Assembly (NCBI GenBank): GCA_017983795.1
Contig: JAGOAS010000004.1
Span: 62,001-126,000, forward strand
DNA length: 64,000 bases
From: Piscinibacter sp.
GTDB lineage: Bacteria > Pseudomonadota > Gammaproteobacteria > Burkholderiales > Burkholderiaceae_C
Reading direction: 5' to 3'
Below the pieces are notes generated by a model that saw nothing but the letters and a program-made list of their open reading frames with translations, searched no databases and was not told where the DNA came from. The position numbers and the translations under genes are program-made. Below, in pieces: positions 61,006 through 63,853 of this stretch. The first letter of the stretch is position 1, and each line of letters opens with the position of its first letter.

Positions 61006-61755
61006 TCAGTGGCTCTCGCCGAGGTAGGCGGTCTGCACCTCGTGATTGCTGCGGATCGCCGCCGGCGCATCGCTGGCGATCACCTCGCCGTTGACCATCA
61101 CGGTGATGCGGTCGGCGATGCGGAATACCGCGTCCATGTCGTGCTCGACCAGCAGCACCGCGTGCTCCGATTTCAGCGAGGCGAGCAGCGCCAGCATGCG
61201 CTCGGTCTCCTCGGCGCCCATGCCGGCCAGCGGCTCGTCGAGCAGCAGCACGCGTGGTTTGGTGGCCAGGCACATGGCGATCTCGAGCTGGCGCTTGCCG
61301 CCGTGGCTGAGCGTGCCGGCGCCGCGCTGCGCGACGTCGGCCAGGCCCGCCGCCGCGAGCGCCTCGTGTGCCACCGCGAGGCTGGCGGCGCAGCGCTGCG
61401 CCGCCTCCCACAGCGCCCAGGCGCGCGGCAGCGCGGCCTGCGCGCACAGGCGGCAGTTCTCCAGCACCGTGAATTCGGGAAAGATGGTCGTGCGCTGGTA
61501 GCTGCGGCCGATGCCGGCACGCGCGCGCTTCGGCTGCGACCAGTCGGTGACGTCGCGCCCGGCGAATTCGATGCTGCCACCCGACGGCGCGATCTCGCCG
61601 GAGAGCATGTTGATCAGCGTGGACTTGCCCGCGCCGTTGGTGCCGATCACCGCATGCACCTCGCCGCGGCGCAGCTCGAGCGAGACGCCGTCGACCGCGG
61701 TGAGCCCGCCGAAGCGGCGCGTCAGCAGGTTGGAGGACAGCAGCGCTTCAGTCAT
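61006..61755 (-). CDS. livG: Branched-chain-type ABC transporter ATPase LivG
   Basis: The 249-residue ATPase has Walker A GTNGAGKSTLINMLSGE, the LivG feature GIGRSYQRTTIFPEFTVLENC, signature LSHGGKRQLEIAMCLA, Walker B VLLLDEPLAGMGAEE and switch VEHDMDAVF. It pairs with LivF to drive import. Its start overlaps the livM stop by 8 bases. Confidence 0.92.
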   Translation of the reverse strand: MTEALLSSNLLTRRFGGLTAVDGVSLELRRGEVHAVIGTNGAGKSTLINMLSGEIAPSGGSIEFAGRDVTDWSQPKRARAGIGRSYQRTTIFPEFTVLENCRLCAQAALPRAWALWEAAQRCAASLAVAHEALAAAGLADVAQRGAGTLSHGGKRQLEIAMCLATKPRVLLLDEPLAGMGAEETERMLALLASLKSEHAVLLVEHDMDAVFRIADRITVMVNGEVIASDAPAAIRSNHEVQTAYLGESH

Positions 61756-62713
61756 GCCTGCTCCCGATGCCGAGGCGCTGCTTCAACCCGATCAAGCCCT
61801 TGGGCAGCAGCGCGACGAAGGCGATGATGGTGAAGCCCAGCGTCAGCTGCCAGTGGCCCGCCAGCGGCCCGAGCAGCGCCTCGCTCTGGAACAGCTCCTG
61901 CAGCAGCGTGAAGGCGGCGGCGCCGATCACCGCGCCGCGCAGGCTGCCGATGCCGCCGAGGATGATCATCAGCAGCACCGCGCCCGACTGGTGCCACGAC
62001 AACAGCTCGGGGTTGACCGCGCCGTCCTTCACCGCCATCAGAAAGCCGGCGAGGCCTGCGAGGCTGCCGCCGATCACGAACGCGGCGAGCTTGTAGCCGT
62101 AGGTGCGAAAGCCCGCCGCGCGCATGCGCTGCTCGTTGACGCGGATGCCGGCCAGCGCATGGCCGAGGCGCGAGCGCGCGATCAGCGCCAGCAGGCCGTA
62201 GGTGAAGGCGAGCGCCGCCAGCACGAGGTAGTAGAAGTGCGCCTTGTCGTCGAGGTCGAGCAGGGTGCGGCTGCCGATGGCGAGCACCGGCTTGCTGTAG
62301 AGAAAGATGCCGTCGCTGCCGCCGCCGAGCTTGGTGTCGTGGAAGACGAAGTAAGCCATCTGCGCGAAGGCCAGCGTCACCATGATGAAGTAGACGCCGC
62401 TGGTGCGCAGGCTGAGCGCGCCGACGAAGAGCGCGTAGAGCGCTGCGGCACCCATCGCCGCCGGCAGCAGCCACAGCAGCGAGGCCGGCCCGGCATCGCC
62501 CGTGGCCAGCACGGTGACGTAGGCCCCGATGCCGAAGAAGGCCGCATGGCCCAGGCTCACCAGGCCGGTGCTGCCCACCAGCAGTTCGAGGCTGAGCGCG
62601 AAGATCGCGAACACGGCGATCTTGAGCACCAGGTCCTGCGTATAGGGCGTCAGCACGGTTGGCAGTGCGGCGACTGCAATGAGTGCGATGACAGGGGCGA
62701 TCCAGGTTCGCAT
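61748..62713 (-). CDS. livM: Branched-chain-type ABC transporter permease LivM
   Basis: The 321-residue membrane protein has about nine hydrophobic helices and the LivM signatures LELLVGSTGLVSLGHAAFFGIGAYV and GHALAGIRVNEQRMRAAGFRTYGYKLAAFVIGGSLAGLAGFL. It forms half of the channel with LivH. I use the ATG at 62713; the frame stays open further upstream, but there it runs through the hairpin repeats between livH and livM. Confidence 0.92.
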   Translation of the reverse strand: MRTWIAPVIALIAVAALPTVLTPYTQDLVLKIAVFAIFALSLELLVGSTGLVSLGHAAFFGIGAYVTVLATGDAGPASLLWLLPAAMGAAALYALFVGALSLRTSGVYFIMVTLAFAQMAYFVFHDTKLGGGSDGIFLYSKPVLAIGSRTLLDLDDKAHFYYLVLAALAFTYGLLALIARSRLGHALAGIRVNEQRMRAAGFRTYGYKLAAFVIGGSLAGLAGFLMAVKDGAVNPELLSWHQSGAVLLMIILGGIGSLRGAVIGAAAFTLLQELFQSEALLGPLAGHWQLTLGFTIIAFVALLPKGLIGLKQRLGIGSRHD

Positions 62714-62742
62714 CTCAGTCGCCCCACTGCCACCACCGAGCG

Positions 62743-62815
62743 CGGCGAGGCCGGGGCCTGCCGGTCTGTGCGCGGCCCGATATCCGTGCTCGACCGGCAG
62801 GCCCCGGCCTCGCCG
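62743..62815. repeat. Hairpin element 1: 23-bp stem, 27-nt conserved loop
   Basis: The left arm (62743-62765, starting CGGCGAGGCC) and right arm (62793-62815, ending GGCCTCGCCG) are perfect 23-base inverted repeats. The 27-base loop (62766-62792, CTGTGCGCGGCCCGAT... to GTGCTCG) is the exact reverse complement of the loop of element 2. An 11-base direct repeat flanks the element. Confidence 0.85.
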
Positions 62816-62864
62816 TGCCACCACCGGGCGCGCCCAAAGAATGCGCAGTGCACCGCTGCTGCCA

Positions 62865-62937
62865 CAGCGCTGGCCTGGGGGGCTGGGCGAGCACGGATAT
62901 CGGGCCGCGCACAGCCCAGCCCCCCAGGCCAGCGCTG
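62865..62937. repeat. Hairpin element 2: 23-bp stem of different sequence, same loop inverted
   Basis: The left arm (62865-62887, starting CAGCGCTGGCC) and right arm (62915-62937, ending GGCCAGCGCTG) are perfect 23-base inverted repeats unrelated in sequence to those of element 1. The 27-base loop (62888-62914, CGAGCACGGATATCGG... to GCACAG) is identical to that of element 1 in inverted orientation. Both elements have the same 23-27-23 dimensions. Confidence 0.85.
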
Positions 62938-62980
62938 CGCTCCGGCGATTGCATGAAGGGCGAGGGCGCGCGCAACAAGC

Positions 62981-63853
62981 TCAATGCCCTCGCTTCATCA
63001 AGCCCTCGGGCCGCCACACGAGCACGATCGCCATCAGCAGGTAGACGCCGATGCCGCTGTATTCGGCGAAGAACACCTTGCCGAAGGTGTCGACGAAGCC
63101 GACCAGCAGCGAGGCGATCAGCGCGCCGCTGATCGAGCCGATGCCGCCGATCACCACCACCACGAAGCAGATGATCAGCACGCTGCCGCCCATGCCCGGG
63201 TACACCGACGACAGCGGCGCGGCGATCATGCCGGCCAGCGCCGCCAGCGCCACGCCGCCGGCGAACACGATGCGATAGAGGCGCTGGATGTCGATGCCCA
63301 GGCCGCGCACCATGTCGCGGTTGCTGGCGCCGGCGCGGATCATCATGCCGAGCCGGGTGCGGTTCACCACCCAGTACAGCGCCACCGCGAGCACGATGCA
63401 GGCCACCGAGGCGAACACGCGGTACCAGGGGTAGCTCATCAGCTCGCCGAGCTTGAAGCCGCCGGCCAGCCAGGCCGGCGCCTGCACGCCGTGCACGTCG
63501 TTGCCGACGGTCAGCGAGCGCAGTTCCTCGAACACCAGGATCAGCGCATAGGTCATCAGCACCTGCTGCAGGTGGTCACGCTGGTAGAGGAAGCTGAAGA
63601 AGGCCCATTCCAGCAGGTAGCCGAACAGCGCCGCGAGGATCACGCCGGCCAGCAGCTTGCTCAGGTACCAGTCGCCGAACCAGGGCGCCAGCACGAAGGC
63701 CAGGTAGGCGCCGATCATGTAGAAGCTGCCGTGGGCGAGGTTGATCACGCCCATGATCCCGAAGATCAGCGTCAGGCCACTGGCGACCAGGAACAGCAGC
63801 AGGCCGTACTGGACGGCGTTGAGGCACTGGACGAGGAAGGTGGCGAGATCCAC
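62981..63853 (-). CDS. livH: Branched-chain-type ABC transporter permease LivH
   Basis: The 290-residue membrane protein has eight or so helices and the LivH pattern FLVQCLNAVQYGLLLFLVASGLTLIFGIMGVINLAHGSFYMIGAYL at the N-terminus and RDMVRGLGIDIQRLYRIVFAGGVALAALAGMIAAPL later. It starts with GTG at 63853, ten bases after the binding-protein stop codon. It forms the channel with LivM. Confidence 0.92.
   Translation of the reverse strand: MDLATFLVQCLNAVQYGLLLFLVASGLTLIFGIMGVINLAHGSFYMIGAYLAFVLAPWFGDWYLSKLLAGVILAALFGYLLEWAFFSFLYQRDHLQQVLMTYALILVFEELRSLTVGNDVHGVQAPAWLAGGFKLGELMSYPWYRVFASVACIVLAVALYWVVNRTRLGMMIRAGASNRDMVRGLGIDIQRLYRIVFAGGVALAALAGMIAAPLSSVYPGMGGSVLIICFVVVVIGGIGSISGALIASLLVGFVDTFGKVFFAEYSGIGVYLLMAIVLVWRPEGLMKRGH

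Follow-up and report, generated by a model that had tools for sequence, protein, structure and literature searches.

A twin-hairpin repeat at operon stop-start junctions in Piscinibacter and its possible role as a translation relay

Introduction

Why should two long hairpins, whose stems differ and whose loops are exact reverse complements of each other, lie between two genes of a branched-chain amino acid transporter? The question is raised by a stretch of 64,000 nucleotides from Piscinibacter sp. (positions 62001-126000 of contig C43 in G000, the genome under study), which we refer to as the window and whose own numbering we use. A preliminary description of the window, made from its letters, had noted this twin-hairpin element between livH and livM, and had suggested that its structure and loop are maintained by selection, that the two loops might pair with each other and that a small mobile element might be involved.

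In the following, we describe the element as a low-copy palindromic repeat, which is neither a chance structure nor a local inversion and which is placed like the mycobacterial interspersed repetitive units (MIRUs). The dominant regularity among its copies goes beyond the preliminary description: the copies sit between a stop and a start codon in a set orientation, and a reading frame runs through the element. On balance, we think that this is a palindromic, mobile-type interspersed repeat of operon stop-start junctions, and that it is kept there because its frame works as a translation relay. In a softer form, which we regard as the best reading, the repeat is tolerated, or works, as a translation relay that preserves operon coupling.

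Copies and empty sites

A search of the whole of G000 with the loop, allowing up to three mismatches, yielded 19 matches, against none for the reversed control pattern. They belong to 11 loci, eight of which have both hairpins and three only one; the window contains exactly two of these matches (shuffled mean 0). Piscinibacter aquaticus KACC 15278 (G005, an assembly that is 77% complete) has a further eight matches at four loci. Full copies align across ~200 bp at about 74-88% in BLAST, and the element measures ~205 bp, with ends, GGAGCGCGGC and GCCGCGCTC(C/G), that by eye are inverted relative to each other. In the two carrier genomes, all 27 loop matches lie inside hairpin elements, as a search allowing any flanks had been expected to find. 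The arms, by contrast, are not always perfect and unrelated, as had also been expected: 25 of the matches align in register, two have damaged or shifted arms, and the stem types recur from copy to copy.

True copies were found in two of the 60 genomes scanned, our own included, namely G000 and P. aquaticus. One further loop match among these genomes (L020) has no arms and looks like chance, and the same applies to three matches with three mismatches in G001 and G003, among the eight genomes of the genus, and to L044 in the named genome collection, where P. aquaticus was otherwise the only match. A search with a whole element copy added merely short or marginal matches (best E 2.4e-4). Likewise, a hairpin model run over 299 genomes of the family (15 best candidates each) returned, among the matches listed, which do not include G005, G000 and one weak match (L047 in G167 C172; 32.7 bits), which we rejected as a relative because its long, perfect-looking inverted repeat encloses another loop sequence. 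In Rfam, the 28 matches at E up to 1 were all to microRNA families and below their gathering score. Neither the 236-nt region in the phage and plasmid collections nor the exact 22-nt pattern in the viral contigs found a match, and an origin from phages, plasmids or viruses was therefore set aside. The literature on Betaproteobacteria, among the matches listed, describes neither the element nor a similar finding.

The flanks of ten of the 13 distinct sites were used as queries against the eight genus genomes (L009 and L015 lay outside this comparison, and the flank matches L069 and L100 were not placed). At all ten, at least one congener lacks the element. In the empty congeners, stop and start are within about 20 nt of each other at nine of the ten sites, overlapping or almost touching at several, with junctions such as TGATG, TGANATG and ATGA; at L017 the distance is about 45 nt. 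P. aquaticus has no insert at five of the sites that are occupied in G000 (L071, L074, L078, L081 and L091), and the ugpA-ugpE-like site, occupied in P. aquaticus, is empty in G000 (L094). The livG-livF site, also occupied in P. aquaticus, is empty in the window, where the two loop matches are the only ones. Two sites are common to both carriers (L011/L024 and L018/L029), and at both of them G000 is without part of the element present in P. aquaticus.

With 11 and four loci and a set of empty sites, the suspicion of a small mobile-type element has been borne out, and the element probably moves. The predicted empty livH-livM junctions do exist in congeners. The inserted DNA, however, comprises both hairpins and fills the whole distance of 267 nt from stop to start. 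A single hairpin as the mobile unit is not supported, and neither is a recent local inversion of one sequence, which had been named at the outset as a possible objection. Nor do we favor reading the 11-base direct repeat beside hairpin A (TGCCACCACCG) as a target-site duplication, since by eye a CACCGAG-like sequence flanks hairpin A in several copies elsewhere. At the stop-start junction itself, a duplication is suggestive at L014 and L016, although not clean. The upstream stops read DTGA in 10 of 13 cases, no more than chance (3 in 4) would give.

The placement of the copies is highly regular. Fourteen of the 15 lie between co-directional genes, and in 13 of these 14 the order is upstream stop, hairpin B, hairpin A, downstream start. 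The exceptions are L017, which is reversed, and L009, which lies between convergent genes. An intrinsic terminator was considered and rejected, as the element sits inside operons and, by eye, no T-run follows the hairpins.

Structure and covariation of the hairpins

Of the 27 hairpins, 25 could be aligned; hairpin B of L016, in which one arm is replaced, and hairpin B of L024, whose arms are shifted, were left out. In the window copy, the two hairpins of 73 nt with perfect arms are as first described, except that their dimensions are 24-25-24 rather than 23-27-23. Their centers are indeed exact reverse complements, over 25 nt (62767-62791 vs 62889-62913). These centers had been taken as simply unpaired, but they can form up to five standard pairs and one non-standard position, which close an 8-nt apex, ATATCGGG. 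The non-standard position is A.C in 24 of the 25 aligned hairpins (G.U on the other strand), while the apex is invariant in all of them.

Nor are the stems unrelated, as they had seemed to be from a single copy: type A stems, which end ..CTGCCGGTC or in close variants, and type B stems, which end ..GGCTGGGC or ..GGCCGGGC or in close variants, each recur across copies. Conversely, the identity of the two loops is untypical. Among the 12 two-hairpin copies, the window copy and L014 are the two in which they are identical, whereas in eight copies positions 7 and 18 of the center both differ. Nine of 13 A hairpins have C-G at this pair of positions, and all 12 B hairpins have G-C; in the window, hairpin A carries the B form, and its two loops therefore match exactly.

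At 17 of the 30 stem pairs, we found at least one double change, and the covariation score of the alignment is 0.428, compared with 0.103 for shuffled and at most 0.093 for slid controls; 98.0% of the stem cells are paired. Accordingly, the idea that structure and a fixed loop are maintained together has held up. Template-switch repair of imperfect palindromes can, however, also yield compensatory changes, and these are thus on their own no proof of selection on RNA.

The apexes CCCGATAT and ATATCGGG are mutually complementary, so that the loop-loop (kissing) pairing envisaged for the transcript is possible; the conserved apex may serve such pairing or, alternatively, mobility. Differential expression within operons has been proposed for intercistronic repetitive extragenic palindromic (REP) sequences, and one might accordingly read the element as a regulatory or stability RNA between cistrons, with its two apexes kissing. 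Its complementary, invariant 8-nt apexes and the shared direction of transcription of 13 of the 14 co-directional copies are in line with this, and so is the location of 5 of the 13 distinct sites between ABC-transporter genes (L014, L016, L019, L021 and L027), a raw count that relies on Pfam for at least one partner and on reading of the sequence for the other. Yet we hold such an RNA element to be improbable: the apexes of an inverted repeat are complementary with or without selection, the hairpins would be melted if the frame described below is translated, and in an mRNA, hairpin B would bear A.C rather than G.U mismatches.

This last point relates to a bias in the stems. On the GAGCAC strand, whether of A or of B hairpins, G.T(U) mismatches (17) are commoner than A.C mismatches (2), the near-invariant A.C position left aside and several of them being common to copies. 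Hairpins A and B sit on opposite strands, yet both show this excess in the GAGCAC strand, which hints at a role as single-stranded DNA.

Given these features, the element could also be a non-autonomous palindromic repeat that is kept by self-propagation only, similar to the REP doublets forming hairpins (REPINs) or bacterial interspersed mosaic elements (BIMEs). It would then be intergenic because it is tolerated there, and its open frames would be a by-product of high G+C content and common descent. An inverted hairpin pair with a conserved apex and compensatory stems is what the consulted part of PMC3116915 describes for REPINs, and the mismatch bias on opposite-strand hairpins fits recognition of single-stranded DNA better than it fits one RNA. 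However, the orientation of 13 in 14 copies speaks against self-propagation alone, and the transposase that one would look for was not seen: the Y1 family PF01797 (RAYT) has no match in G000 or in the 77% complete G005, and matches in one of the eight genus genomes, G004. Such a transposase was therefore rejected as the mobilizer. We regard this explanation as unlikely, also in view of the reading frames.

A reading frame from stop to start

We speak of a relay frame where an ATG, GTG or TTG is located at most 4 nt ahead of, or 9 nt beyond, the upstream stop (counted from its first base), and where the frame that it opens continues through the insert and stops between 20 nt before and 4 nt after the downstream ATG. 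We counted the 13 co-oriented copies and left aside the convergent L009 as well as L017, which is reversed and has no relay. Eleven of the 13 have a relay frame, compared with a mean of 5.9 when interiors are permuted among sites (P 0.0019). Under other windows, start codons or site sets, P ranges from 0.0007 to 0.023, keeping a single member of each shared site gives 0.0025 and 0.0064, and in a further window setting 80 of 20,000 permutations reach the observed count. This site-specific phase counts against a REPIN-like repeat kept by self-propagation only. Deletions of 1-2 nt cut the relay frames to 2-4 of 13, and in L024 and L027 of P. aquaticus, the frame of hairpin B is shifted, yet an open frame still leads from the upstream stop to the downstream start. 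Three copies, L011, L016 and L018, are reduced to about one hairpin; in all three, the remaining frame joins stop and start.

Several observations weigh against a selected relay. By the above rule, the frame is missing in two of the 13 co-oriented copies (L012 and L021) and in the reversed L017. The window copy qualifies only with TTG as a start, and the count with ATG and GTG alone is 10 of 13 (P 0.0008). In 500 rounds, shuffled interiors had a mean of 6.1 and reached at most 11 of 13, while reversed ones gave 7 of 13; that shuffling leaves a frame in about half of the copies is also what self-propagation with tolerated insertion would lead one to expect. The inserts have 70-77% G+C, and open frames are therefore common in them. 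As the copies are of common ancestry, part of the in-phase excess may have been inherited rather than selected. Moreover, the differences in loop spacing are multiples of three in 4 of 8 copies, which is no clear excess. Given common descent and the G+C content, the permutation test alone thus constitutes moderate evidence.

Selection at the peptide level appears weak, which likewise tells against the frame. In a codon analysis of 12 of the 13 A rows and 9 of the 12 B rows, the synonymous fraction was 0.355 (expected 0.317) for A and 0.404 (expected 0.325) for B. These values bear on the notion that the product of the frame is a small protein with a function of its own, of about 40-90 amino acids, which we consider very improbable. 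They are the highest among the frames (0.058-0.212 in the others), and peptides such as GPISVLAQPARP and GRAPISGGAQTGRPRP are common to copies, but they are also close to expectation. Pfam matched none of the three relay peptides tried, hairpin B is read in another frame in two copies, and three copies are missing one half.

An unrelated family with the same placement

In one congener (G007), the livH-livM junction holds a hairpin insert of ~80 nt that is unrelated to the twin-hairpin element (L093), and the ugpA-ugpE-like junction of G004 also carries an insert of this second family (L117). Its core, GCTCACTTCGTTCGCTGCCCCCCGAGGGGGC, has 62 matches in the eight genus genomes (L102-L163), ten of these places being in G000 (e.g. 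L107, L119 and L125). The second loop is largely constant, the second stem is variable, and the relay frame comprises ~25 codons. In different species, both families occupy the same two junctions, livH-livM (L093/L019) and the ugpA-ugpE-like one (L117/L021), which suggests that some operon junctions are favored.

A script classed all 62 loci: 45 are co-directional copies in one orientation, one is reverse, and 16 were unclear and went uncounted. A relay frame, typically from ATG AAA CCC CC.. to ..CAC TGA N ATG, is present in 35 of the 45, whereas permuted interiors gave a mean of 16.1 and a maximum of 27 in 5,000 rounds. Without duplicate sites, the count is 33 of 43 against a permuted mean of 15.4 (0/20,000), and with narrower windows 27 of 43 against 13.0 (1/20,000). 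In 20 of the 35 copies, the frame differs by whole codons from the commonest length of 25 codons. Both the ATG and the stop seem to belong to this element, so that the test mainly shows a start-to-stop frame unit.

Twelve plasmid records, from Variovorax, Paraburkholderia, Burkholderia and Azoarcus, likewise carry the second family, and seven of them were examined; two annotated Variovorax records place the end of one gene and the beginning of the next at the element. Eleven more loci were taken from other genomes of the order, and five of these, which lack the exact core, were left aside. Among the 13 loci inspected outside the genus, the picture is mixed, which counts against the relay, as does the finding that reversed interiors give 18 of 43. 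A start beside the stop and a stop beside the ATG are seen in five of the 13 (L169, L180, L181, L185 and L186, with gene ends annotated in two), three have frames that continue beyond the next start (L167, L182 and L183), and five or so are unclear. One of the read-through cases, on a plasmid of Paraburkholderia largidicola (L183, 1195-1551), forms an N-terminal extension of an annotated succinate dehydrogenase assembly factor 2.

That a second, unrelated family follows the same rule is a further point against a purely REPIN-like explanation of the first. One may go further and suppose that at least two unrelated palindromic families of Betaproteobacteria converged on stop-start junctions with a hairpin relay; the hairpins would silence independent downstream initiation, and each insert would form a translation gate through which the downstream gene comes to depend on its upstream neighbor. 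This stronger version is possible, but we find it rather doubtful.

The livH-livM copy and the neighboring genes

In the window, the element is transcribed from the minus strand in the order hairpin B, spacer, hairpin A (Table 1). It is far more stable than expected, as none of 200 shuffles was as stable either as RNA (z = -12.0) or as DNA (z = -10.0). In congeners without the insert, livH and livM overlap or nearly touch, and from these the livM start was placed at the ATG 62711-62713. The first in-frame ATG of the proposed relay open reading frame (62952-62954) is 30 nt past its TTG, and its TGA (62715-62717) ends 1 nt before the livM ATG.

Table 1. Features of the twin-hairpin copy and its neighboring genes, in window positions
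Feature	Position	Strand	Remarks
Twin-hairpin element	62737..62944	-	One of 11 G000 loci; ends approximate; from 11-locus alignment, BLAST among copies and census
DNA from livH stop to livM start	62714..62980	.	267 nt; congeners without it: matches L088-L092, L098
Hairpin A	62743..62815	-	24-bp stem, 25-nt center; perfect arms 62743-62766/62792-62815; type A stem ..GGCCTGCCGGTC
Center of hairpin A	62767..62791	-	GAGCACGGATATCGGGCCGCGCACA on minus strand; able to self-pair, leaving apex ATATCGGG
Hairpin B	62865..62937	+	24-bp stem, 25-nt center; perfect arms 62865-62888/62914-62937; type B stem, ending ..GGGGGCTGGGC in this copy
Center of hairpin B	62889..62913	+	Exact reverse complement of hairpin A center
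Proposed relay open reading frame	62715..62984	-	89 codons + stop; TTG start overlaps livH stop 62981-62983
livH-type branched-chain amino acid ABC permease (upstream gene)	62981..63853	-	PF02653, 2e-36
livM-type permease (downstream gene)	61748..62713	-	PF02653, 1.3e-40 for slightly longer frame 61748-62719

Besides livH-livM, the neighbors of the copies include, by Pfam, an Acyltransferase/CTP_transf_1 pair, NnrS, QueF and several ABC-transporter genes; the names dppB-dppC, ugpA-ugpE and livG-livF were read from Pfam matches together with the sequences. At L015 (G000 C40), a run of N follows the element, and beyond it the end of the element appears once more, so that this is probably a scaffold gap and the downstream gene is incomplete there. 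The orthologous junctions of L017 in G007 and G001 (L083 and L084) contain two more, different hairpin-rich stretches.

Proposed mechanism and implications

In the relay that we favor, ribosomes finishing the upstream gene (livH here) would restart at a start codon overlapping or near its stop, open both hairpins as they translate the element, and terminate at a codon that overlaps the next start (livM here) or is near it, where they would hand over. In this way, the two genes would remain coupled despite the insert, and the RNA would be spared a long stretch with strong structure and no translation. The frame is thus predicted to be translated and to couple the expression of its neighbors. 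Such a relay would join re-initiation and RNA unfolding, the two models found in the consulted portion of the review PMC12548453.

If the relay is real, repeats can settle inside the operons of compact genomes without breaking translational coupling. The copies, several of them with empty-site controls in sister species, offer natural test cases for how far a short frame carries coupling across strong RNA structure. They also call for caution in annotation, as frames of this kind, when taken for genes, may in fact be relays.

Relation to other interspersed repeats

The element shares several traits with REPINs and BIMEs as portrayed in the consulted part of PMC3116915, namely a unit made of two inverted palindromes, compensatory changes in the stems and an extragenic location. 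REP stems, however, have 5-13 bp in the GTAG and 8-9 bp in the CGTC families according to the passages of PMC3733652 at hand, whereas the stems here have 24 bp. Moreover, a GTAG or CGTC tag at the hairpin feet is absent by eye, and the element differs in its 11 and four loci, fixed orientation, relay frame and carriers without a PF01797 match. Rickettsia palindromic elements and enterobacterial RU/ERIC sequences with open reading frames are likewise palindromic or resemble miniature inverted-repeat transposable elements (MITEs), and are compatible with reading frames, but in the sections of PMC10969869 and PMC2759123 consulted they are inserted in or fused to coding genes; here, a separate frame lies between stop and start. 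The Chunjie MITE of Geobacter uraniireducens, as far as its consulted description goes, has terminal inverted repeats and direct repeats. In our element, the ends are inverted by eye, and no clean duplication was seen. For Chunjie, we know of no relay reading frame.

In its placement, the element parallels the MIRUs (Supply and colleagues, 1997). In the part of PMC12548453 consulted, these repeats, which seem to be mobile, insert at start codons and carry a reading frame coupled to the gene. In a similar manner, our element lies between the stop and start of co-directional genes, in the direction of the genes, in 13 of 15 copies, and has an internal frame overlapping or near both neighbors in 11 of the 13 co-oriented ones. 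The MIRU frame, too, reportedly runs in the direction of the genes and overlaps both neighbors, and MIRUs insert into DTGA sites. They are, on the other hand, 46-101 bp long, without dyad symmetry, whereas the element described here has ~205 bp with two 24-bp stems, occurs in Betaproteobacteria and is likened to them by layout, not by sequence. Because defining features are absent, we claim membership neither in the MIRUs nor in the REPINs; the element resembles MIRUs in logic rather than in structure. If its relay is real, the trick proposed for mycobacterial MIRUs exists in another phylum, with quite different, hairpin-rich sequences.
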